From: Segetibacter sp. 3557_3
GTDB taxonomy: Bacteria; Bacteroidota; Bacteroidia; Chitinophagales; Chitinophagaceae
Direction of reading: 5' to 3'
Assembly (NCBI RefSeq): GCF_004354985.1
Contig: NZ_SMSK01000008.1
Location: forward strand, 186,001 to 250,000
Length of the DNA: 64,000 nucleotides
The notes under the pieces are model-generated. The model saw only the letters and a program-made list of their open reading frames with translations, made no database searches and was not told the DNA's origin. Shown piece after piece: positions 16,131-38,515 of this stretch. Position 1 is the first letter of the stretch; every line of letters begins with the position of its first letter. A program made the position numbers and the translations under genes.

Positions 16131-17636
16131 ATGGATATGTTTGAAACATTGAGTCAACCAGGCGGGATACAGATCAACATGAACTTCGAAAGAGAAGAAC
16201 CTGGTACCGTTCGAAAACCTGCCGGGGGAATGCCGTGGGTGAGCGTAGCCGCAAACGCTCCTTACTTCATCACAGAAGATGGTGCAAACTGGACCCCCAT
16301 TGGTCAGAATGATGCAATTACATGGCCCGACCTGGAAGGTATATTCCGGAATAAAGACATGGCTACGGTTGAAAGTTATTTGAAACTTCTGGTAGACCAT
16401 GGCGTAACCTGCCTGAGGCTAATGCTTGAGTACTGCCATGGCGAAAGCCGTTATTTCGAAAAACCTGTGGGCCGGTTTCAGCCCAATATGATCCGGCTCT
16501 GGGACGACATGTTTGCCCTATGCGAAAAATACGGTTTAAGAATTTTACTCACGCCTTACGATACTTTCTGGATGTGGCTGCGTTGGTCAAAGCATCCATA
16601 CAAAAAGGTCAACGGTGGCCCTTGCGGCAAACGTTCGCAATGGTTGTTGTGTGCCGAAACGCGAAAGGTGATCAAACAGCGTCTCGCATTTGCAACGGAA
16701 AGGTGGGGCTCTAGTGGTGCCCTTTTCGCCTGGGATCTCTGGAATGAAATACATCCGGCACATGCAGGCGACAGTATCGATACGTTCTCCGAATTTATTG
16801 ATGACATCGGTTCGTTTCTCAGGGAAGAAGAGGTCCGTTTGCATGGTAGGGCCCATCCGCAAACAGTGTCACTATTTGGACCGGTGTTGCGCACCCATCC
16901 AGGTGTTGCAGACTCAGTTTTCCGGCACCCTGCCCTTGACTTTGCCTCTATCCATTTCTACGAAAGCGGAACCATTGATCATCCCCGAAATACGGTAGAT
17001 GCTGCCATTAGTACGGGCAGACTTACCCGGGAAGCCATTTTGCATACCACTGCAGGCCGACCTTTTTTCGACAGCGAACATGGACCAATCCACACCTACA
17101 AGGATCACCATAAAACGCTGCCGCAACCTTTTGATGATGAATATTTCCGGCACATGCAGTGGGCACATTTCGCATCCGGAGGAGCTGGCGGGGGGATGCG
17201 TTGGCCAAACCGAAAACCGCATTCGCTTACTTTGGGCATGCGAAAGGCGCAATTGGCATTGAACAGATTTCTTCCACTTATTAACTGGAAACAGTTTGAA
17301 CGAAGAAACCTGAACGAGGAAATTAAAGTCTCTATACAAGGATTAGCTGCTTTCGGCTGTGCCGACGATCAGCAGGCGATTTTATGGCTTCTGCGCACCG
17401 ATAACCTTGACAAAAACGGGATGCTCCGGCACGATGTTGAGCCTGTTCAGGGTTGTGTGCACATTCCCGGCTTAAGCTATGGCCACTACCAGGTCACCGC
17501 CTGGGACACTGCCGGGGGCCACGTGATCAGAACCTTCGAGGTGCAACACGAAACAGGAGAGCACCTGTGTATTGCTATTCCGCCGTTGGTTACCGACATA
17601 GCGTTTGCCATAAGTGCAAATGCAGGCAAAATATAA
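16131..17636 (+). CDS. Intracellular clan GH-A glycoside hydrolase (GH5/cellulase-like)
   Basis: This 501-residue protein has no signal peptide. A (beta/alpha)8 barrel spans about residues 55-400, with LRLMLEY early, WDLWNE ending in Glu206 (position of the acid/base) and FDSEHG with Glu316 (position of the nucleophile). This pair is the clan GH-A pattern seen in GH5 cellulase/mannanase-like enzymes. The last 100 residues form a small beta-rich domain. The expected reaction is retaining hydrolysis or transglycosylation of a beta-glycoside. Cytoplasmic location and the biosynthetic genes downstream suggest processing of a glycan intermediate, not polymer degradation. Exact specificity is unclear. 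Confidence 0.75.
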   Translation: MDMFETLSQPGGIQINMNFEREEPGTVRKPAGGMPWVSVAANAPYFITEDGANWTPIGQNDAITWPDLEGIFRNKDMATVESYLKLLVDHGVTCLRLMLEYCHGESRYFEKPVGRFQPNMIRLWDDMFALCEKYGLRILLTPYDTFWMWLRWSKHPYKKVNGGPCGKRSQWLLCAETRKVIKQRLAFATERWGSSGALFAWDLWNEIHPAHAGDSIDTFSEFIDDIGSFLREEEVRLHGRAHPQTVSLFGPVLRTHPGVADSVFRHPALDFASIHFYESGTIDHPRNTVDAAISTGRLTREAILHTTAGRPFFDSEHGPIHTYKDHHKTLPQPFDDEYFRHMQWAHFASGGAGGGMRWPNRKPHSLTLGMRKAQLALNRFLPLINWKQFERRNLNEEIKVSIQGLAAFGCADDQQAILWLLRTDNLDKNGMLRHDVEPVQGCVHIPGLSYGHYQVTAWDTAGGHVIRTFEVQHETGEHLCIAIPPLVTDIAFAISANAGKI

Positions 17637-18454
17637 AGAGCGCAAACAACAGGATATGATTTTCTAGCGGATCGCCGGTAAGCATGGCTTACAATTGCGC
17701 GGTGTTACGCAGTAGACCCGCTAACCCCAACTTATCCACACCCATTACAGCTCACCCCAAAAGCGAAGCGCTGCATGCTCAAGTATAGTATTTTTACGAT
17801 ATAGGTTGTTCCTGGCATTTTGGCGCTTACTATACTGAAGCGGGTGTTAGTTGTTTCCTGGCTTACCATAGTGTATCATCAATTACGGGTTCGGCTTAAG
17901 GTTTTGCAGGTTGGAGTTGACATCTATGTGAGGGTAAACGCGCTTTCCATCCTGGAAGACAGGTATTGTAAATTCATTCGGTGTACCATTGGCAAAATCC
18001 TGTTAGGAAGAGTACAGGTAAAGAACGGAAAAACAGTATAACGGAGGCTTTGGCGTGAGTTTTCTTACATAATGACAAGTAATTTGATAATAAATGCCTT
18101 GTCGACGAGGTTTGTAGCTGCTCATATGCTTTTTTTTGCAGGTTTGTTGTAGCTTGTCGCTTTGCCCGGAGTGCGAACCAACGTTCCGGGCACTTTTCGA
18201 GGTATTTGGGAGTTGCCGGAGGCTTTTTAATCGAGGGAAAGCCGCAAATGGGCTGCAGGTTTGTAGCTGCCCGATTGCGGGTCCAGGTTGGAGAATTGTG
18301 GTTGTTTTACCAGCAACTGCGCTTAAAAAACGCAGTGCAAGGGTCAACCAAAGGGATTTGATTGTTTGTTGCAACGGTGTGTTTTATATGATATTTCGTA
18401 CCCGGTGGAACAATTTTTTTGTAAAAGTTATTTCATTATTAAACACTTGCATTG
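17637..18454. other. Long intergenic region before the glycan genes
   Basis: About 820 bases without a supported gene. Short frames exist on both strands but none has a recognisable product. The last 80 bases before ATG 18455 are A+T-rich (ATATGATATTTCG, TTTTTTTGTAAAAG) and probably hold the promoter of the epimerase operon, but no consensus box is convincing. Confidence 0.3.
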
Positions 18455-19573
18455 ATGAAGAAAAAAGTTTTGATCACCGGCGGTGCCGGGTTTATTGGAT
18501 CGCATTTGGCAGATGAACTTTTAGAAAATGGTTACGAAGTACGGGTGCTCGACAATCTTAGTGAACAGGTTCATGGCAAAAACGTAACCAGGCCAGATTA
18601 TCTGAATGACGATGTTGAACTGGTGATTGGCGATGTAAGAGACCCTAAAAAGGTGAAAGAAGCTTTGAAAGGTATCGATGCTGTTTATCACTATGCTGCT
18701 ATGGTAGGCGTTGGCCAGAGCATGTATGAAATAAAGGAATATACCGACGTAAACAATATGGGAACAGCTGTTCTCCTCGAAGCACTCAGCAAAAATCCGG
18801 TTGAAAAATTGGTTGTTGCTTCAAGTATGAGTATTTACGGTGAAGGCTTATACAAAGATTCCAATGGTGTTATTAAAGCCGGAGTAGAACGTACGCTGGA
18901 GCAATTGAAAACCGGCGACTGGGAAATGTATGATGCAAACGGCAACGTACTAACCCCTTATCCCACGCCTGAAACAAAAACACCCTCTCTCTCTTCCATA
19001 TATGCCCTTTCGAAATACGACCAGGAACGCATGAGCCTTATGATTGGCAAAGCTTACGGGATACCGACTGTAGCCCTGCGCTTTTTTAATGTTTATGGTA
19101 CCCGGCAGTCGTTATCTAATCCATATACCGGGGTATTAGCTATTTTCGCCTCCCGCTTACTAAATAATAACCCGGTTCTAATTTTCGAAGACGGAAATCA
19201 AAAGCGCGATTTCGTTAGCGTATTGGATATTGCCCGGGCTTCAAGGCTGGCACTGGAGACTCCTGAAGCGGCTTATGATGTGTTCAATATAGGAAGCGGC
19301 AATGCTTACACGATCAATGAAATAGCAGGAAAGATGGCAGAAATTCTTGGAAAAGAAGACATTCTCCCAGATATCTGTGGCAAGTACCGGGTAGGTGATA
19401 TCAGGCATTGCTCATCCGACATATCAAAGGCAAAGCAGATCCTGGGCTATGAACCGAGAGTTACATTAGAGCAGGGATTGATTGAACTTGCAGAGTGGCT
19501 CGAAGGGCAAACTGCAGAAGATAAGGTCAGCGAGATGCGAAATGAATTGGCGGTAAGAGGACTTACAGTTTAA
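18455..19573 (+). CDS. NAD-dependent sugar-nucleotide epimerase/dehydratase
   Basis: This 372-residue extended SDR has TGGAGFIG at residues 8-15 for NAD binding, DNLSE after the second strand, and YALSK with Tyr183 and Lys187 as the catalytic pair. RFFNVYGTRQ and a substrate-binding C-terminal half follow. It resembles UDP-glucose 4-epimerase-like enzymes that interconvert nucleotide sugars. I use ATG 18455; the TTG directly before it extends the frame by one codon only. The fusion gene follows 22 bases later on the same strand, so the two are likely co-transcribed. The product sugar cannot be told. Confidence 0.85.
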   Translation: MKKKVLITGGAGFIGSHLADELLENGYEVRVLDNLSEQVHGKNVTRPDYLNDDVELVIGDVRDPKKVKEALKGIDAVYHYAAMVGVGQSMYEIKEYTDVNNMGTAVLLEALSKNPVEKLVVASSMSIYGEGLYKDSNGVIKAGVERTLEQLKTGDWEMYDANGNVLTPYPTPETKTPSLSSIYALSKYDQERMSLMIGKAYGIPTVALRFFNVYGTRQSLSNPYTGVLAIFASRLLNNNPVLIFEDGNQKRDFVSVLDIARASRLALETPEAAYDVFNIGSGNAYTINEIAGKMAEILGKEDILPDICGKYRVGDIRHCSSDISKAKQILGYEPRVTLEQGLIELAEWLEGQTAEDKVSEMRNELAVRGLTV

Positions 19574-19595: not shown

Positions 19596-21647
19596 ATGGT
19601 GGCAAATCAATCCTTTAATGACCGTAAAATGGAGGACAAAAAAGAGCTAGTTGGTTTAGTGCAGTGGTTCCAGGTGGGCGAATACGAGGCGGTAGAAAAA
19701 GCAATCAGCGATTTTAAAAGATTAGGGTTAACAGCAATACGAACCAATTTTTCATGGGCCGACTGGCGTTCGGAAGGGGGGAAAACCTGGTATGACTGGT
19801 TGTTCCCAACATTAGCAAAAGACTTTCAGATATTACCTTGCCTGTTTTATACTACGCCTTTTACCGGAACCAAACCTAACATCCCTGCCGAGCCACAGAC
19901 GCCAAAAGACTATGCTGAATTTATCGATTCGATGCTGGAAAAATATGGTGATCATTTTGAATACTTAGAACTATGGTACGGTCAAAACAAAAAAGGTCCT
20001 CATAATTATACTGCCGATGAAAAGTTCAATGCCTTTTGCGAGATAGCTGGAAATGCGGCGGCACGGATCAGGAATAATGGAAAAAAGACTGTTCTGGGTG
20101 GGATTTGTGCAGAAAACTTTGGTTGGCTTCCGGGCTTATTTAGTAAGAAGCTCATGCAGTATATCGATGTTTTGGGATTCCAGTTTCTTGCAGACGACCT
20201 GGAAAACCGGGGCGAAAACATCAACACCGTAGTTAGCCGGCTTCGCGAGATGCTGGAACTTTACAATTCACCTGCGCAAATATGGATTACTGAGGCGGGC
20301 TGCTCAACCTGGCAGAAGACAGGTTCAGTTCAGGTCCGCGAATTTATTGCAGCACTGCATGCACCATGCGACAGGTTATACTGGTACGCGCTAAACGACG
20401 TTTCGCCCGCGCTGTTTGGGGGTGACGTATCAAAGAGTGAATATTATTTTGGCATGAAGGACAGCAGCGGATCTCCGAAACTGCTATATACATTATTGGC
20501 TTCAAAAGGGCTTGATTTGATAGATGAATATGGATGGATAACGGAAGACGTCATCGGCCGATCCTCACGTAATAACAACGATCAATACACATTAATAACC
20601 GGCGGCTCTGGCTTTGTTGGGGTTAACCTTGCAGATCGTTTGCTTAGTGAGGGAAAAAAGGTGATGGTTTTCGATAACCTGTCCCGTTCAGGAGTTGAGA
20701 ACAACCTGTTTTGGCTTAAAGACAAGTATAAGCAGAACCTGCAAATCATGATTGCAGACATCCGGGATAAGGCAGCCGTAAATGCAGCAGTAGCTAATGC
20801 CGACCAGGTGTTCCATTTTGCTGCACAGGTCGCAGTTACTTCCAGCCTCGAAAATCCCTTTTACGATTTTGAAGTGAACGCCCAGGGCACCCTCAACCTA
20901 CTTGAAGCGATACGCAACACAACCCATCAACCTCCTGTTGTTTTTACCTCAACCAATAAAGTTTATGGTGGGCTGGATGATCTTGGTATCGTAATGAACG
21001 GCACCCGTTATTACCCGGAGAATACCTTATACCGTCAGAACGGAATTAGCGAAAACAGGAACCTTGAATTTCACAGTCCTTATGGCTGTACAAAGGGTGT
21101 TGCTGACCAATATATGTTAGACTATGCCCGGACCTTTGGTTTAAAAACGGTGGTGTTCCGGATGAGTTGTATCTACGGTCCTCACCAGTTTGGAACGGAG
21201 GACCAGGGTTGGGTTGCCCATTTCCTGATTCAGGCTATGAAGAACAAGCCTATAACCTTGTATGGAGACGGAAAGCAGGTTCGCGACGTTCTATTTGTTG
21301 AAGACCTGGTAAATGCCTTCATCCTTGCTATGGATAACATTGACGTTGTTTCAGGCCAGGCGTTCAACATGGGTGGTGGTGTAAACAATACCGTTAGTCT
21401 GCTCGAGTTGTGTGACCTGATTGGAGACATCGCCGGTAAAAAGCCCGAAGTCAGGTTCGACGACTGGCGCCCGAGCGATCAAAAATATTATGTTTCTGAT
21501 TTTACCAAGTTCAACGGCGTAACCGGTTGGGCACCAAACATCGACAGCAATGAAGGTGTTCAGCGCCTATACCACTGGCTGATAGAAAATGCGGGTATTC
21601 CGGTAGTGAATAAAACCAGGAAACAAAAAATCATAACCCCGGCTTAG
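19596..21647 (+). CDS. Fusion of a degenerate glycosidase-like barrel and a CDP-paratose-epimerase-like SDR
   Basis: The protein has 683 residues in two parts. Residues about 20-315 form a clan GH-A-like barrel beginning GLVQWFQVGEYEAV. At the acid/base site it reads WYGQ (residues 127-130) where active relatives have WNEP, so the glutamate is replaced by Gly129. The nucleophile-position Glu233 in WITEAG remains. Residues about 330-675 form an extended SDR with ITGGSGFVG, YGCTK (Tyr496, Lys500) and QFGTEDQGWVAHF, the last typical of CDP-paratose 2-epimerase-like enzymes. The barrel may bind the glycan substrate without cleaving it. The barrel's homologue at 36571-37458 is circularly permuted relative to it. 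Confidence 0.8.
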   Translation: MVANQSFNDRKMEDKKELVGLVQWFQVGEYEAVEKAISDFKRLGLTAIRTNFSWADWRSEGGKTWYDWLFPTLAKDFQILPCLFYTTPFTGTKPNIPAEPQTPKDYAEFIDSMLEKYGDHFEYLELWYGQNKKGPHNYTADEKFNAFCEIAGNAAARIRNNGKKTVLGGICAENFGWLPGLFSKKLMQYIDVLGFQFLADDLENRGENINTVVSRLREMLELYNSPAQIWITEAGCSTWQKTGSVQVREFIAALHAPCDRLYWYALNDVSPALFGGDVSKSEYYFGMKDSSGSPKLLYTLLASKGLDLIDEYGWITEDVIGRSSRNNNDQYTLITGGSGFVGVNLADRLLSEGKKVMVFDNLSRSGVENNLFWLKDKYKQNLQIMIADIRDKAAVNAAVANADQVFHFAAQVAVTSSLENPFYDFEVNAQGTLNLLEAIRNTTHQPPVVFTSTNKVYGGLDDLGIVMNGTRYYPENTLYRQNGISENRNLEFHSPYGCTKGVADQYMLDYARTFGLKTVVFRMSCIYGPHQFGTEDQGWVAHFLIQAMKNKPITLYGDGKQVRDVLFVEDLVNAFILAMDNIDVVSGQAFNMGGGVNNTVSLLELCDLIGDIAGKKPEVRFDDWRPSDQKYYVSDFTKFNGVTGWAPNIDSNEGVQRLYHWLIENAGIPVVNKTRKQKIITPA

Positions 21648-31740: not shown

Positions 31741-32343
31741 TCAGCCAGCGATCGATCCGGTGTGATTAATCACCAGTATCCGTACAGTCTCATCGTAAAC
31801 TTCCACGATACTCACCGATGCCGGGCTGATCTCCAGCCGCTGAAACATATCGAGATGAATGCCCGCATAATAGGCCAGGGTGGCTTTTATCAGGTCTGAA
31901 TGACTAATAATTGCCACAGTTTCGCCCCTATGTTTGGCTCTTAGTTGCTCAAGACCTGCAATCATTCGCGCCTGCGCTTCGGTCATAAGCTCACCACCAG
32001 GTATCCGGGTGCAACTCCTGAACGAATTGAAGTGCTTGAAAACAGGTTCATCCCGGAGATCTTCGATCTTTCGCCCGGTCCATTCGCCAAAATCGACTTC
32101 CAGGAAATGTTCATCCACCCCCGTTTGCACCCCAACACGCCTTGAAATTGCTTGCGCGGTCTCCATTGTACGTTGTAAAGGACTGCTGTAAATGGCATCT
32201 ATTGCTAAGCCGGCTAAGCGGTTAGCAAGTTCTTCGGCCTCGGCATAACCCTTTTCGTTAAGTGAAACACCTTCCATCCTCCCGGCCAGTACTTTGCCTA
32301 CCATATCGGTTGTAGCATGTCGTATCAGTACAAATTTGGTCAT
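31741..32343 (-). CDS. Histidine phosphatase (phosphoglycerate-mutase-like)
   Basis: This 200-residue protein of the histidine phosphatase superfamily has the catalytic LIRHATTD at residues 6-13, YSSPLQRTMETAQ with the second arginine, a glutamate in the FLEVDFGEWTG segment, and ISHSDLIKA with the second histidine. It should be a soluble phosphomonoesterase or mutase. Its neighbours are inositol-3-phosphate synthase on the same strand and the pyruvyltransferase-family gene on the other. Dephosphorylation of a sugar or inositol phosphate is possible but not shown by sequence. Confidence 0.85.
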   Translation of the reverse strand: MTKFVLIRHATTDMVGKVLAGRMEGVSLNEKGYAEAEELANRLAGLAIDAIYSSPLQRTMETAQAISRRVGVQTGVDEHFLEVDFGEWTGRKIEDLRDEPVFKHFNSFRSCTRIPGGELMTEAQARMIAGLEQLRAKHRGETVAIISHSDLIKATLAYYAGIHLDMFQRLEISPASVSIVEVYDETVRILVINHTGSIAG

Positions 32344-32668
32344 CAGCTTCGTTTTATAATGTTGGTTCCTGTTTATCTTTTATATTGCCCCTTATCTGAT
32401 TCTTTACCCGGTTGATAAACCAGGAGACGACTTTGGTATGGCACCTTATTTATGTAATCACAAGCGAAAGCAGACTTTTAAGTAAGCCTACACCCAGGCT
32501 TTGCTTAGCATGCTTTGAAGCAAAGCATTGCAGCTCCGGGTAAACAGCAAACGGTTACGCAATTGAATGCAATCCTTTAGCCAACTGACCCTCCATAACA
32601 AAGGGTTGCCGTGCAAAGAAAACCCGGAAGAACAGCCTAACGAAAAAATATAACCCGATCTAAGTTTC
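32344..32668. repeat. Divergent intergenic region with an inverted repeat at 32498-32526
   Basis: GCTTTGCTT (32498-32506) and AAGCAAAGC (32518-32526) are perfect 9-base inverted arms around an 11-base loop. They lie between the divergent phosphatase and pyruvyltransferase-family genes. They could be an operator or an mRNA leader hairpin of the plus-strand operon. No clear -7 box was found. Confidence 0.35.
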
Positions 32669-33787
32669 ATGATCTACGAACCAGCTCCTTCAAATAACAA
32701 TACCGGCCTTAAAATCGGTGTGCTTACTTTTCACAGGTGTATAAATTATGGCAGCTACTGGCAGGCACGTGCTCTAACAGAAGGCCTGCAGGCAGGTGGA
32801 AACCATGCGGTGTTACTCGACCATGAGTCGCGCCGCGTGAACTTTGCCGAATGGAAATGTGCTTTCCAACCGGTTTTGCCGACAGCCGTTCCGCCATCAG
32901 ACAGGCCGCTTTACCGCGAAAAGGTGATCAAGTTTTTTAAAACTTTTCAAACAATGCCGTTATCACCCCGGTTTGAACTCGATCACCCCGACGCTATGGA
33001 AGAGTACGATGTGGTTGTTGTTGGAAGCGATGAGGTATGGAACTTATTCCATCCCTGGTATGGCAAGTGCCCCTTGTTTTATGGTGATGGCTTAAAAGCA
33101 AAACGCCTGGTGTCGTATGCTGCAAGTTTTGGCAACCAGCCGGCTGATTACGGACTTGACCCGTTATGGGCAGCTAAACTCAGGAACTTCGACCTGATAT
33201 CCGTTCGCGACGATAATTCAAAGAAAATCATACAAGATGCACTTGGCATTGATCCGCCGATGGTGCTCGATCCATGCCTGCAGTTCGACTTTGCACCCGA
33301 CCCACGTGAGCATACCCATTTGCAGGAACCCTATGTAGCCGTTTATGGCCATAACTTTACTGACGCTTTTGCACGTCAGATACGTTCATGGGCCAGTGAT
33401 AAAGGACTTCCGTTAGTAAGTATTGGCTATAGAAATGACTGGGCAGATGAACAGTGGCTCACTGCTGACCCGCATGACTTTGCACATTTTATGGCCAATG
33501 CACAGGTAGTTGCAACAAACTTTTTTCATGGTTGTGTATTTGCACTGCGTAATGCAAAACCTTTTGTTTGCGAAACAACACCTTACCGCACCAATAAACT
33601 AAAAGGATTGATGTCAAAGATCGGTGGTGAACATCACCTGCTGCCAGAAGATGCACCGGCAGCGAACTTTGCGGCCCGTTTGGGTGAGCCGCTGAACCCT
33701 GAAATATTAACCCAGATTAATCGCCTTCGCCAAGCTTCAAACGCGTACCTACAAAAGGCGGGGCTGCTTGAATGTTTACCCGCATGA
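32669..33787 (+). CDS. Polysaccharide pyruvyltransferase-family protein
   Basis: This 372-residue protein matches the PF04230 family. The N-terminal segment KIGVLTFHRCINYGSYWQA is the family's opening strand and loop. VVVGSDEVWN lies mid-protein and VATNFFHGCVFALRN near the C-terminus, the latter being the conserved xxFHGxxFA donor-site region. Members transfer pyruvyl groups or act as glycosyltransferase-like enzymes in exopolysaccharide synthesis. It overlaps the next gene by four bases (ATGA at 33784), so the two are translationally coupled, a common pairing in exopolysaccharide loci. Confidence 0.85.
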   Translation: MIYEPAPSNNNTGLKIGVLTFHRCINYGSYWQARALTEGLQAGGNHAVLLDHESRRVNFAEWKCAFQPVLPTAVPPSDRPLYREKVIKFFKTFQTMPLSPRFELDHPDAMEEYDVVVVGSDEVWNLFHPWYGKCPLFYGDGLKAKRLVSYAASFGNQPADYGLDPLWAAKLRNFDLISVRDDNSKKIIQDALGIDPPMVLDPCLQFDFAPDPREHTHLQEPYVAVYGHNFTDAFARQIRSWASDKGLPLVSIGYRNDWADEQWLTADPHDFAHFMANAQVVATNFFHGCVFALRNAKPFVCETTPYRTNKLKGLMSKIGGEHHLLPEDAPAANFAARLGEPLNPEILTQINRLRQASNAYLQKAGLLECLPA

Positions 33788-35166
33788 ATAAACTGGTAAG
33801 TCCTAAAGATATTGTTGACTCTGGTTTGTGTATAGGATGCGGCAGTTGTGTTGCCCAGGCCGCTGTACGGGGTACTTACATGGACTTTGATCCAATTGGC
33901 CAGCTAAAGCCGCATGGACCGGCGGAGTGGTATCGATCGCGTACAGAACAGTTTACGCAAACCTGCCCGTTTTCGCCGGGAGCGAAAAACGAAGACCAGC
34001 TGGCAGCGTTGAATTTCCCGGGGGCAGAACATAAGGACAATGCTGTTGGCCGCTACCAGACTGCCTATGTAGGTTATGTTGCCGAAGAAGACTTTAGAAC
34101 CCACGGTAGCTCGGGTGGAATGGTGAGCTGGGTTGCCACCGAATTGCTCCGCCAGGGTTTAATCGACGGGGTTGCTCATGTAGTTGCAACCCAAAACCCC
34201 CAGGAGGATGGGCGTTTTTTTCGCTATCGCATTTCGCGAACCGAAGCCCATATTCGCGAAGGAGCCAAGTCCCGTTACTATCCAATTGACCTTTCTGAGA
34301 TACTTGCACTAATCCGCGCTGTTCCGGGCCGGTATGCTGTGGTAGGTATTCCTTGTTTTATCAAAGCTATTCACCTGCTTCGGAGCGAGGACCCCAACAT
34401 CCGGGAACGTATACCTTTTACGCTGGGTCTTTTTTGCGGGCATATGAAAAGCGCACGATTTGTGGAAAGCTTCGCCTGGCAAATGAATGTTCCGGTAACC
34501 GAGGTAAGCCGGGTAGAGTTCCGCCAAAAGGATCCAAACCGGCCGGCAAACTGGTATAATGCCAAGCTCACCCTGCGGAATGGACAAACGGTTGACAAAG
34601 ATTGGTGGAACCTTGCCGACGGTGATTGGGGAGCCGGGTTTTTTATGAATTCAGCCTGTAACTTTTGCGACGATGTCGTTGGCGAAACGGCCGACATATC
34701 TTTTGGTGACGCCTGGGTTGAACCATATTCTTCTGATCCACGAGGAACCAACGTTGTGGTGGTTCGTTCGACGGTGATAGAAAACTTTATACAAGACGCT
34801 ATACAACAGGGGCGGCTGCAATTGGAAAATGTAGACGCAAAATTCGTTGAGCAAACACAGGCTGCCGGGTTCAGGCAGCGCCGCGAAGGCCTTGCTTACC
34901 GCTTAACCTGGTGGCGAAAAGGGATCCGGTTACCCAAACGTGTTGCACCCGACGCAAAATCTCCGACAAGACAACGGAAGTTGATCTACCGTTTACGGTT
35001 CCAGATTTCGGCCTGGGGTCACCGTGTGTTCCGGTTTGCACGTGCGGTTAACCAACCAAAGGTGTATATTCTCTGGGGCAGAATGGCAGGGGCTGTTTAT
35101 TACGGCTGGGCGTATCACAAGGGTAAATGGGGTGAAATATTCAAGCGGTTTACCGGCAGGTTTTAA
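33784..35166 (+). CDS. F420-hydrogenase/dehydrogenase beta-subunit-like iron-sulfur protein
   Basis: I start at ATG 33784 (MNKLVSPKDIVDSGLCIGCG), which overlaps the upstream stop as ATGA and gives 460 residues. The N-terminus carries LCIGCGSC plus a later TCPFSP cysteine, together the likely 4Fe-4S ligands. The FrhB-type middle contains HGSSGGMVS and GIPCFIKAI. CNFCDD and ADISFGDAW follow near residue 300. Homologues accompany pyruvyltransferase-family proteins in exopolysaccharide loci, and their electron donor and substrate are generally unknown. A basic C-terminal tail follows. Confidence 0.85.
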   Translation: MNKLVSPKDIVDSGLCIGCGSCVAQAAVRGTYMDFDPIGQLKPHGPAEWYRSRTEQFTQTCPFSPGAKNEDQLAALNFPGAEHKDNAVGRYQTAYVGYVAEEDFRTHGSSGGMVSWVATELLRQGLIDGVAHVVATQNPQEDGRFFRYRISRTEAHIREGAKSRYYPIDLSEILALIRAVPGRYAVVGIPCFIKAIHLLRSEDPNIRERIPFTLGLFCGHMKSARFVESFAWQMNVPVTEVSRVEFRQKDPNRPANWYNAKLTLRNGQTVDKDWWNLADGDWGAGFFMNSACNFCDDVVGETADISFGDAWVEPYSSDPRGTNVVVVRSTVIENFIQDAIQQGRLQLENVDAKFVEQTQAAGFRQRREGLAYRLTWWRKGIRLPKRVAPDAKSPTRQRKLIYRLRFQISAWGHRVFRFARAVNQPKVYILWGRMAGAVYYGWAYHKGKWGEIFKRFTGRF

Positions 35167-35600: not shown

Positions 35601-36524
35601 TCAATATGCCTTCGAACTTAGATCATCAAGTTCAACCTTAACACGACTGATCACTTCATCCCAGTCGCCTGCTGTTCTTTGCCGGAATATCCGCATGGTC
35701 GGGTACCACGGGCTGTCTTCACGATCATCCATCCACCGCCAGTCGGCTTTTGTATGTAACAGGTTCCATACCGGGGTGCCTATTGCGCCTGCAAGGTGCG
35801 CCGGCATAGAGTCAACGGTAATCAAAATGTCGAGGCTACGAATGAACCGGGCATAATTAAAAAGGTCCATCGAACCTGGGTTTATGCCGAAGCCCTCGCG
35901 CCAACCTGCGTCTGCGGCACCGCCCTGAAGAATATACAGGTCCACCCCGGGGATTTCCGCAAGGGGAGAAAGTGCTTGAAACAGGATACCTCTTCGTTGA
36001 TCCCAGTCACCAGCTTTCCAGACCAGTCCGACAGAAAACCCATTTTTACCTGGTAAGTCCGTGGGGTGAACGTGCAGGTAGGGAATGGCAGCAGGTAAGC
36101 TATTGATGTTGGTTCGAAAGAGGTGCGAGAGCTCCATAATTTCAACATCCATATCATAAGCAACTTCAGGGCTGCCATTGTGTAAGGGCAATAGTTGATC
36201 GATGCCGGGGGCTGTTTGTAATAAGGGGATCAGATCAGGCTGCGCCCAAACAATCACTTCTTTTGCAACGCTTTTCAGCATGGGCATAAAGCGGATAAAC
36301 TGTATGGTATCGCCAAGCCCATGGTAACAGCGGACCAATACGCGCTTACCCTCAGGTGAGGAGCCATCCCAAACATATTGCAGGTGCCGCGGCAGGTGCC
36401 AGCATGGGGTACCTGCCCGCGACTGTAAAACTTCATCGCTAAACTTCCACGCTTCTTCGAATTGCCCGCGTCGCATATACGTCATCCAGTCGGGACGCGT
36501 TTCTACCTGTTGTTCGCTGCGCAT
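35601..36524 (-). CDS. GT9-like glycosyltransferase (ADP-heptose-transferase-like)
   Basis: This 307-residue protein has RVLVRCYHGLGDTIQFIRF, the GLGD motif at the start of a GT9-like domain, and ILITVDSMPAHLAGAIGTPVW, the conserved donor-site D-S/T-x-x-x-H-L-A-G region. The N-terminal 50 residues look helical (MTYMRRGQFEEAWKFSDEVL), like a single tetratricopeptide repeat. Such TPR/GT9 proteins are common in glycan loci. It is the last gene of a minus-strand operon: methyltransferase, permuted glycosidase, then this gene 46 bases later. Confidence 0.8.
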   Translation of the reverse strand: MRSEQQVETRPDWMTYMRRGQFEEAWKFSDEVLQSRAGTPCWHLPRHLQYVWDGSSPEGKRVLVRCYHGLGDTIQFIRFMPMLKSVAKEVIVWAQPDLIPLLQTAPGIDQLLPLHNGSPEVAYDMDVEIMELSHLFRTNINSLPAAIPYLHVHPTDLPGKNGFSVGLVWKAGDWDQRRGILFQALSPLAEIPGVDLYILQGGAADAGWREGFGINPGSMDLFNYARFIRSLDILITVDSMPAHLAGAIGTPVWNLLHTKADWRWMDDREDSPWYPTMRIFRQRTAGDWDEVISRVKVELDDLSSKAY

Positions 36525-36570: not shown

Positions 36571-37458
36571 TCACCTGGCGTACCGGCGCATCATGGTTAC
36601 ACAAAAATCGGCAAACTCGTTCACGTCTTTCGGGGGGCTGGTGTGGTGTGGTTCTATGCCTTTAGCCTCTGGTGTAAAACAAAAGGTTATGGTAAGGTCG
36701 AATTCAGCTAGTGCTTTCATCATACGGTCGAACCATTGCTCAGCGTTTGGCCGGTACCAGTCGGCCCAGCTTAAGCCTGTACGCAAGCGCTTGACGCCCA
36801 GCTTACGCAACCACTCAACAGCGGAGTCGAGGCGATGATCTTCGAAATGAAACCACTGGCAAATGCCAAACTCGGGGGTATAATCGGCAAAGATTTTTGC
36901 CGCCAGTTTTGGTGAACCATCTTCGCGGAGTAATCCCATATGGAAGTGACGGTAATAAGAAGAGCCTTCCGCTTCGCGGTGGCGGGTGGTAGCCTCCCAT
37001 GCTTTTGGAAGGTCGTACAGGCTGTACCAATGGATGCGATCAACACGACCCGTAAGCAGTTCAGCAGTACGGCGAAGACCAAACTCCTGCACCTCTTCCG
37101 CGCCAAAAGATGAAACCCCAACCTCGGTTACCCACACCGGTAAATCCGTAACAGCCTCTATCTCGGCAATCTTATCGCTCCATTCGTGAATTTGCCACAG
37201 GTTCCAGTCAAGCGGGAAGCCATGTACAGCTACCGCATCCAGGTCGTCGAGTGCGTTATAAGATTTAAGCCGGTTAATAAAAGTGGGATCAATCGGCGAT
37301 ATACCGCCAAGCACGCGCAAAATATCGGGACTCTCAGCTTTAACAGCTTTTGCGGCTACCTTAACCATTTCCCCGAAAATTTTCCACTCAGGGTCTGCTT
37401 CAAAAATCCAGTGCGATTTGTTATTGGGTTCGTTCCAGAACTTAACTGCTTCAATCAT
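36571..37458 (-). CDS. Circularly permuted clan GH-A glycosidase-like protein
   Basis: This 295-residue protein begins MIEAVKFWNEPNN: the acid/base Glu10 of WNEP lies at the extreme N-terminus instead of mid-barrel. Glu112 in WVTEVG is the nucleophile position. Residues 1-197 align with residues about 120-315 of the fusion protein at 19596-21647. Residues 198-295 (GICQWF, LRTGLSWADW, PPKDVNEFADF) align with its residues about 20-118. The order of the two segments is reversed, so the barrel is circularly permuted. Both catalytic glutamates are kept, so activity is plausible. There is no signal peptide. It starts 14 bases after the methyltransferase stop. Confidence 0.75.
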   Translation of the reverse strand: MIEAVKFWNEPNNKSHWIFEADPEWKIFGEMVKVAAKAVKAESPDILRVLGGISPIDPTFINRLKSYNALDDLDAVAVHGFPLDWNLWQIHEWSDKIAEIEAVTDLPVWVTEVGVSSFGAEEVQEFGLRRTAELLTGRVDRIHWYSLYDLPKAWEATTRHREAEGSSYYRHFHMGLLREDGSPKLAAKIFADYTPEFGICQWFHFEDHRLDSAVEWLRKLGVKRLRTGLSWADWYRPNAEQWFDRMMKALAEFDLTITFCFTPEAKGIEPHHTSPPKDVNEFADFCVTMMRRYAR

Positions 37459-37472
37459 ATTTTACGCTTTGC

Positions 37473-38249
37473 TTATTGTTTTGGTGGGTATACGGCGCGG
37501 GGCTGTTTGTCTTTTATCTCGCCTTTCCGGGTAATGTAGACTTCCTTTTCGGGGTGGGCGGTAATCTCGAAACCGGCGCTGCGGAGCATTGCCTCCATAC
37601 CGGCCTGGTTTGGTATCCACCAGTTGGTTGGATCGTTAGAGTAGCGGTTTTCGATAAAATACATCACCGGGAAACCTGGACTATTAAAAATGTCGGTCTC
37701 CCAAAAGTCGTAGTCATATTCCAGTGTATCAACCTGGTCGCTGCCACGCTGCATCGATTGAAAGATGAGTACATCTTTCACAACATTTTCGTACAGGAGG
37801 TCAAGTGCCAAAAGAGGATGTCGAAGATGATACAATACACCCATAAAGATCACTACGTCGAACTTTTCGTTGAGGCCGGCCACTTCGTACACCGACATAT
37901 TCTTAAACTCAATTTCTGCCCCGAGCACTTCTGCCGCAAACCGCGCCTGCGCCAGGTAACGCTCATCGGAGTCGATACCAACGACCCTGGCAGCACCACG
38001 GCGTTTCATTTCGATGGAGTAAAAACCGGCATTACAGCCTATGTCGAGTACTGTTTTGCCGGTGAGGTCCTGCGGTATCGCATTCGCGAATCCCTGGAAC
38101 TTCACCCTCGGGTAGTCGCCTAGAAAATGATCAGGCGCGGTTTGTACCCCACCTAAATCAATATTATGGAACCATTTACCAAGTTTCTGAACAGTTGCGC
38201 TAATCTCGTCAGCAGTTAACGCCGTAATAGCATTAAGTGGGGTGCTCAT
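37473..38249 (-). CDS. SAM-dependent methyltransferase (CmoB/DUF1698-like)
   Basis: I choose ATG 38249 (MSTPLNAITALTADEISATV), giving 258 residues. The frame back to 38366 adds an unlikely N-terminus. The class I Rossmann motif is VLDIGCNAGFYSIEM, followed by VVGIDSDERYL and FDVVIFMGVLYHLRHPL. The WFHNIDLGGVQTAP start and overall layout resemble CmoB-type methyltransferases, but the gene sits in a glycan operon, so a sugar or glycolipid is a more likely target than tRNA. First gene of the minus-strand operon with the permuted glycosidase and the GT9-like protein. Confidence 0.8.
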   Translation of the reverse strand: MSTPLNAITALTADEISATVQKLGKWFHNIDLGGVQTAPDHFLGDYPRVKFQGFANAIPQDLTGKTVLDIGCNAGFYSIEMKRRGAARVVGIDSDERYLAQARFAAEVLGAEIEFKNMSVYEVAGLNEKFDVVIFMGVLYHLRHPLLALDLLYENVVKDVLIFQSMQRGSDQVDTLEYDYDFWETDIFNSPGFPVMYFIENRYSNDPTNWWIPNQAGMEAMLRSAGFEITAHPEKEVYITRKGEIKDKQPRAVYPPKQ

Positions 38250-38515
38250 TTTACAAGTTAATTTTGGTGATCTACAAATCTTCCCGTTTCTGCAAGCAGC
38301 AAGTGCTTGGTCTACTATGCTCAAAAACTCCCGTGAGTAGCCCGCCAAAAAGCTAGGCGTGGGCACCGGCGCTGTTTACTTATTGTTCTGCTGGTGGTAC
38401 CATAAAAATTATTCCCGGGTACGCGTACCAACCTCAGGGTTGCAAATGTAGCCGTTCAAATGATTGTTCCTTAATATGCCAGGGCATAAATCTGTGGTTC
38501 AGGACTGATGCTTTA

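Follow-up and report, generated by a model that had tools for sequence, protein, structure and literature searches.

A probable natural circular permutant among GH39-like glycosidase barrels of clan GH-A

In glycosidases of clan GH-A, which act by a retaining mechanism, the glutamate on strand 4 of the barrel is the acid/base and that on strand 7 the nucleophile. Natural circular permutations of glycosidase barrels are, to our knowledge, few: the well-known case is that of the GH70 glucansucrases, which are permuted with respect to GH13. A usual genetic route to a permutation is duplication and trimming. As for other barrels, the CE4 deacetylase domain of PgaB is described as a natural permuted barrel (PMC13366581), transaldolase and class I aldolase are discussed as a case of non-sequential alignment (PMC2213659), and designed barrels such as sTIM11 are reported to show that the fold tolerates permutation (PMC8250049, PMC13105402). 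None of the open-access titles and abstracts listed in our searches describes a permuted enzyme of clan GH-A or of GH39.

The gene described here lies on the minus strand at positions 36571–37458 of the window, i.e., of the whole 64-kb stretch of Segetibacter sp. 3557_3 DNA that was analysed. Profile searches, an AlphaFold2 (AF2) model, and residue conservation make it very probable that its 295-residue product is a GH39/PslG-like glycosidase of clan GH-A whose (beta/alpha)8 barrel has undergone natural circular permutation. The reading frame opens with an ATG, at the WNEP strand as the initial annotation had it. The protein begins with MIEAVKFWNEPNN and ends with ...FADFCVTMMRRYAR; its first barrel strand is strand 4 (WNEPNN), and its last element is helix 3. 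Residues 1 to ~190 would make up strands 4–8, and residues ~191–295 strands 1–3. The new N-terminus (residues 1–10; 37429–37458, minus strand) holds strand 4 with its WNEP acid/base motif. A short linker at about residues 186–196 (36874–36903 on the minus strand, for residues ~186–195), placed by the rotation-score peak and the AF2 secondary structure, would join the old C-terminus (helix 8) to the old N-terminus (strand 1). In this arrangement, the chain would be open at the boundary of helix 3 and strand 4 and not ahead of strand 1, giving the order b4-a4 ... b8-a8-b1-a1-b2-a2-b3-a3. The new break, like the junction of the old ends, would fall in a helix-to-strand loop; in such barrels, these loops face away from the active site.

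Might a missing upstream segment restore the linear order, as the initial annotation had cautioned? An in-frame stop lies two codons 5' of the ATG, and the methyltransferase ORF on that side stops at 37473, leaving a gap of 14 nt; hence there is no such segment. A truncated or frame-broken gene was rejected on these grounds together with conservation, and a chance match was rejected on the E-values and the conservation of the family. The same genome holds a second permuted copy on a different contig (L002, contig C17), 77% identical over residues 1–294. That copy adjoins, on the opposite strand, an ORF that looks metallo-beta-lactamase-like by inspection.

The initial annotation had compared the protein with the product of a fusion gene in the same window (19596–21647, plus strand; 683 aa), in which a linear GH39-like barrel is fused to an NAD-dependent epimerase/dehydratase. 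BLASTP reproduced the swapped match: residues 3–198 aligned with residues ~122–313 of the fusion (24% identity, E 5e-7 to 7e-7) and residues 198–294 with residues ~20–118 (27% identity, E 9e-11), the numbering of the fusion allowing for the 13 codons that separate its stop from its ATG. A genome search returned the same two pieces at E 1.5e-4 and 3.3e-12, respectively. The claim that start and stop fall at one junction of the barrel also stood, in that the first and last residues of the chain correspond to neighbours in the linear fusion protein. What had gone unremarked is that this fusion has itself lost the acid/base glutamate (LWYGQN vs. LWNEPN in other fusions), while keeping the nucleophile motif WITEAG; it is therefore not the cleanest reference for the permuted protein. 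Higher scores against the permuted family, up to 114 + 76 bits, come from other linear fusions.

A profile of the permuted family (A1), built from 46 of the 82 permuted sequences, matched 13 of 16 linear relatives as two clear pieces in swapped order. The L093 protein and the L068 fusion also gave swapped pieces, one of them weak in each, and L120 was matched over the strand 4–8 part only. For a rotation scan, the alignment was restarted at every seventh position and at nine further starts near the linker, the profile was rebuilt each time, and the best single-domain scores were summed over the 16 linear proteins. The sum was 1035 bits in the native order, with a minimum of 838 at start 22 and a maximum of 1756 at start 190; the latter belongs to a plateau of 1735–1756 bits (starts 155–197), and the peak coincides with the linker of the old ends. 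Peaks for single proteins were scattered over the plateau, some of them earlier (L088 at 141–148), and the L068 fusion was non-discriminating (18.6 in native order vs. 18.8 at start 190).

PslG gave a similar picture. Against the native-order single sequence it scored 14.0 bits (E 0.18) in separate pieces, vs. 30.2 bits (E 2.1e-6) in one stretch against the rotated sequence (query 10–256 to chain 25–299); with the native-order profile, its two pieces summed to E 1.3e-6. The rotated sequence also reached the GH39 beta-xylosidases (E 0.005–0.11). In the reverse test, a profile of eight linear fusions aligned with the permuted gene in two swapped pieces in every one of 50 genomes, and with the linear GH39-like proteins of eight other genomes in one stretch each. 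By the rotation scan and the PslG alignment, then, the protein is collinear with its relatives only after rotation.

Is this order peculiar to one genome? A scan of one genome per species found at least 577 stretches encoding some relative (E 1e-3). Of these, the best 80 were taken further; together with the two copies of the own genome, they constitute the 82 permuted sequences. In the best 80 of the at least 577, the query was covered from residue 1 to at least residue 286 at 70–84% identity, and all were in permuted order; an order common to these relatives across phyla is not a local accident. The homologue search that the initial annotation had proposed thus finds the permuted order in all 82 close relatives examined, and this, with the swapped pieces in linear relatives, supports its reading of the gene as a circular permutation. 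Eight or more phyla are represented (Bacteroidota, Pseudomonadota, Acidobacteriota, Verrucomicrobiota, Myxococcota, Chloroflexota, Nitrospirota, and Thermodesulfobacteriota), although each of the last three only through a single metagenome-assembled genome; one Actinomycetota metagenome assembly also has the gene, which may be contamination. All 82 sequences begin at the same residue (M in 71, V in 11, followed by [IV][ED][AS]), and their C-terminal extensions amount to 0–26 residues. An upstream in-frame stop occurs within 5 codons in 19, within 20 in 33, and within 95 in 57, so the last leave no room for the ~100 absent residues of a three-strand segment. With dozens of relatives sharing the shifted order, this appears to be an old rearrangement that has been retained, rather than a broken gene.

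A plasmid collection yielded 146 matching records, 97 of them at 60–80% identity. Among the near matches listed, those with annotation were called “beta-xylosidase”, “glycosyl hydrolase” or “hypothetical protein”; the far matches listed (31–34%) were mostly epimerase fusions, aligned in two or three pieces. The wide spread of the permuted order, the “beta-xylosidase” annotation of its relatives, and the frequent TIGR04290 gene upstream (see below) all go beyond the initial annotation. The distribution is patchy, and the gene is rare among near relatives of Segetibacter sp. 3557_3. When the own genome and near relatives, 59 in all, were searched with the single protein, two matched, namely the own genome and G003, in which the linear fusion is the only form present. 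Seven of 296 genomes drawn from the phylum matched, with the permuted gene only in the own genome and linear relatives in the other six. Transfer of the permuted gene between phyla is a likely, if putative, part of its history. Two isolated permuted genes, from Legionella wadsworthii (L032) and a Williamsia metagenome assembly (L024), are placed near Bacteroidota/Lysobacteraceae sequences with weak support; the placements suggest transfer or, for the latter assembly, contamination.

Asn9, Glu10, His79, Glu112, Trp144, Trp202, Arg226, Trp231, and Cys260 are identical in all 82 sequences examined, as are Glu162, Glu164, Ser166, Tyr168, Tyr169, and His171 after strand 8; the mean column identity is 80% in the 46-row permuted alignment. 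The two glutamates that the initial annotation had singled out as catalytic, Glu10 and Glu112, are therefore present here and in every permuted sequence examined. Counted along the chain, Asn9-Glu10 and Glu112 lie on the first and the fourth strand; homology equates these with barrel strands 4 and 7. The protein thus has the Asn-Glu at the end of strand 4 and the Glu at the end of strand 7 that mark clan GH-A; the clan's order of strands 1 to 8 along the chain is replaced by 4–8, then 1–3. By clan homology, the protein would be a retaining hydrolase or transglycosidase that works by double displacement, with Glu10 as acid/base and Glu112 as nucleophile. As for family, homology to a solved GH39 member was found with PslG once the sequence was rotated. 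PF01229 (GH39) matched neither the native nor the rotated order, nor any of 46 family members; the linear secreted relative L088 does match PF01229, and 34 of 46 family members match Pfam Glyco_hydro_cc at E 0.001. Since it combines GH39-type residues with no Pfam GH39 match and the wrong strand order, we file the protein as a permuted variant. Judged by its residues, it should function as clan GH-A enzymes of the GH39 type do.

Could the permuted barrel instead be a pseudo-glycosidase, i.e., a non-catalytic protein for sugar binding or scaffolding? Among linear fusion barrels, a catalytic glutamate (acid/base, nucleophile or both) has been lost in 8 of the 24 examined: the window copy (WYGQ), L118, L151, L153, L154, L155, L157, and L068, whose alignment is gapped there. 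The wider lineage thus tolerates the loss, which speaks for such a reading. In the permuted family, however, Asn9, Glu10, His79, Glu112, Trp144, and Arg226 are among the residues that never vary, and the high column identity argues likewise; we consider a pseudo-glycosidase rather unlikely. The difference in glutamate loss between fusions (8/24) and permuted sequences (0/82) has a Fisher p of 2.4e-6, which is only indicative because the sequences are related.

Linear fusions were present in 15 of 50 permuted-gene genomes in the fusion-profile search, which covered 50 of 60 chosen genomes, and in 5 of 20 genomes in the permuted-profile search, which missed at least the L068 fusion. Twenty-two of the 24 fusions come from genomes that also have the permuted gene, and 14 of those 22 keep both glutamates; both are also kept in the fusion of G003, a genome with no permuted match, and in that of the R. 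etli plasmid. The L068 fusion lies ~1.3 kb from its permuted gene and is the only one within the flanks of the 80 loci, since three of the four “fusion” matches there are the permuted gene itself. The pattern of loss suggests that the permuted enzyme has taken over from the linear fusion. We advance only tentatively, as one possible account, the broader proposal that this is a widespread cytoplasmic clan GH-A family permuted before its spread across phyla, with the permuted protein as the working copy and the linear fusion drifting toward a pseudoenzyme. The Rhizobium etli p42b cluster (L129) has a linear fusion and a TIGR04290 gene, with no permuted gene within 8 kb; there, the fusion may stand in for the permuted enzyme.

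The initial annotation had called for structure predictions of both proteins. That of the permuted protein, made by AF2 from the 46-row alignment of the permuted family, succeeded (mean pLDDT 86.1, pTM 0.87); that of the linear fusion barrel, made from two sequences, was poor (pLDDT 57.7). The permuted model has strands at residues 2–7, 47–50, 75–79, 108–113, 142–145, 197–200, 224–230, and 254–260, alternating with helices; these eight strand-helix units predict the (beta/alpha)8 barrel of clan GH-A, and by homology the strands would be 4–8 followed by 1–3. Residues 157–167 have a pLDDT of <50, though invariant residues fall there. The stretch RHREAEGSSYYRH (residues 159–171), with residues identical in all 82 sequences examined and mostly very low model confidence, may be a substrate-binding lid.

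A sequential fold search with the model returned largely barrels; four matches were at E 0.001 or better, with a TM to query of at most 0.41. Among 50 of 1,420 matches, the best TM to query was 0.50, for a designed barrel; near-full-length alignments had an rmsd of at least 5.5 and a TM to query of at most 0.50; FMN-binding beta-glucuronidases aligned over 175–204 columns at 4.2–5.4 A; and PslG was absent from these 50. This pattern is suggestive of a barrel that is only partly usable by sequential alignment. The order of the sequence alone would suit equally a domain-swapped dimer, in which strands 1–3 of one chain complete strands 4–8 of another. That the single-chain model is confident renders this arrangement distinctly unlikely, and points to a barrel that would close within one chain.

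Phylogenetic trees bear on which order came first. In a 97-row quick tree (without L093), the permuted rows lay on one side of a branch with a support of 15. In a more careful 40-row tree (29 of the 82 permuted sequences, 6 of 8 fusions, and 5 of 8 other linear proteins), they formed one clade in 0% of 200 bootstrap trees, and the fusion clade fell inside them. Taken at face value, this topology would favour the permuted order as the original one, with the linear fusion barrel as a re-permuted derivative. However, the fusions sit on a long branch (5.45 changes per column), which makes their placement unsure; forcing the permuted rows together cost 4.36 log-likelihood units, and a single permuted clade was not rejected (p-AU 0.395); and PslG, the GH39 xylosidases, and the secreted GH39-like relatives are all linear, so that the linear order is ancestral by outgroup. 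A permuted-first history is thus highly improbable.

A single ancient event is most likely as the simplest reading, although the trees do not establish a single origin; the permutation would have arisen once, long ago, with duplication and trimming of a linear barrel as the likeliest route. The initial annotation had set loss of flanking copies from a tandem duplicate against permutation, but such loss is a genetic route to a permutation and no rival structure. Its suggestion of a search for a tandem ancestor produced neither a tandem intermediate nor a leftover half-barrel at 80 loci, for which flanks of up to 5 kb were searched; tandem duplication may have served as the ancient route. That the gene is a recent local remnant of two linear copies and no established protein, a reading left open by the initial annotation and agreeable to a usual route, is scarcely credible in view of the identical ends in 82 of 82 relatives examined from many phyla, the invariant catalytic residues, the paralogue of the same order in its own genome, and the flanks of the 80 loci, where, apart from the permuted gene's own tails, barrel sequence turned up only in the separate L068 fusion gene.

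The surroundings of the gene were also scrutinized. Directly upstream, across the 14-nt gap, is a TIGR04290-family SAM methyltransferase gene (37473–38366, minus strand; 386 bits vs. a cut-off of 300). Downstream is a 307-aa ORF (35601–36524, minus strand) with homologues in 40 of 80 related loci, no Pfam match at E 1e-5, and no NCBIfam match at E 1e-10; “GT9-like” is a working name, given by inspection only. An FrhB/FdhB-like (coenzyme F420 hydrogenase beta) protein (33772–35166, plus strand) and a polysaccharide pyruvyl transferase family protein (32654–33784, plus strand) have homologues in 26 of the 80 loci each. A histidine-phosphatase-like stretch (31765–32340, minus strand) is 45% identical to a protein of the Azospirillum cluster, and an NAD-dependent epimerase/dehydratase (18452–19573, plus strand), which adjoins the fusion gene, is 54% identical to the SDR of that cluster. 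A 501-aa ORF at 16131–17636 appears glycosidase-like by eye and has no Pfam match at E 1e-5.

Flanks of up to 5 kb were examined in 80 loci, 68 of them with full flanks. In 38 of the 80 (the best 80 of at least 577), the permuted gene is immediately preceded on its own strand by a TIGR04290 gene, whose stop overlaps the start of the permuted gene by 4 nt in 23 loci and by 8 nt in 3; one outlying gap value, 1011, was taken as a stop-search artefact. At E 1e-12, flank homologues numbered 57 for the histidine phosphatase, 40 for the 307-aa ORF, 39 for the methyltransferase, 35 for inositol-3-phosphate synthase, 34 for the Glyco_trans_1_2 glycosyltransferase, 30 for the nucleotidyltransferase, 26 each for the FrhB/FdhB-like protein and the pyruvyl transferase, 23 for the SDR, 17 for a zinc-binding dehydrogenase, 16 for Gfo/Idh/MocA, and 6 for the TIGR04295 radical SAM protein, counts in which large families may be over-represented as cluster members. 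Inositol-3-phosphate synthase, the nucleotidyltransferase, and TIGR04295 (at E 1e-5) had no match within the window, where the adjacent TIGR04290 gene is thus not accompanied by a TIGR04295 gene. The latter is present in the clusters of Azospirillum and Bradyrhizobium. The annotated clusters of these two and of S. meliloti pSymB have overlapping gene sets, with no TIGR04290 gene among the annotations of the pSymB stretch.

By its gene content, the setting is a polysaccharide or oligosaccharide biosynthesis cluster. In the open-access literature, we found nothing on TIGR04290 or on an inositol-phosphate synthase/radical SAM exopolysaccharide cluster; the one paper matched by S. meliloti locus tags concerns an unrelated sugar-binding protein (PMC12542648). 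Since a barrel strand comes right at the start of the chain, we infer that there is no signal peptide and that the permuted enzyme is probably cytoplasmic. It would act on a glycoside intermediate of the polysaccharide or oligosaccharide pathway, for which the window encodes a methyltransferase, epimerases, and glycosyltransferases, and related clusters also inositol-3-phosphate synthase.

The occurrence of linear and permuted homologues in the same genome makes the evolution of the fold, its folding order, and the reason for its retention directly testable. If the permuted protein is indeed the working copy and the linear one a pseudoenzyme, the two would form a natural before-and-after pair for the effect of permutation on a (beta/alpha)8 enzyme. 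There is also a consequence for annotation: “beta-xylosidase” proteins on S. meliloti pSymB and on Azospirillum and Bradyrhizobium plasmids are permuted, and bear that name by annotation only. Sequential structure searches and single-sequence searches cope poorly with permuted proteins.

How does the permuted protein compare with known systems? Designed permuted barrels such as sTIM11 are man-made and have no catalytic history. PgaB and the aldolase pair are not clan GH-A glycosidases, and the PgaB barrel is seven-fold. The GH70 glucansucrases belong to clan GH-H and are extracellular multidomain enzymes of unrelated chemistry. The GH39 beta-xylosidases (PDB 1px8/1uhv, 2bs9, and 1w91) match weakly from helix 3 to strand 5 once the sequence is rotated (E 0.005–0.017), and differ in being linear chains of ~500 aa. 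PslG of Pseudomonas aeruginosa, reportedly an endo-beta-glucanase to go by the title of PMC11912335, is the best match among solved structures. This protein (PDB 5bx9 and 4zn2; filed with GH39) aligns over both segments, shares the WNEPN and TE motifs, and likewise comes from an exopolysaccharide system; in contrast, it is a linear chain of 416 aa, and the similarity after rotation is only 30 bits. The closest relatives of all are the SDR-fused linear proteins (19596–21647 in the window, L005, L115–L119, L143–L157, and that of R. etli p42b). They occur in comparable clusters, of which that of R. etli has a TIGR04290 gene, and are set apart from the permuted protein by their normal strand order, their epimerase/dehydratase fusion, and the loss of catalytic glutamates in a third of those examined.
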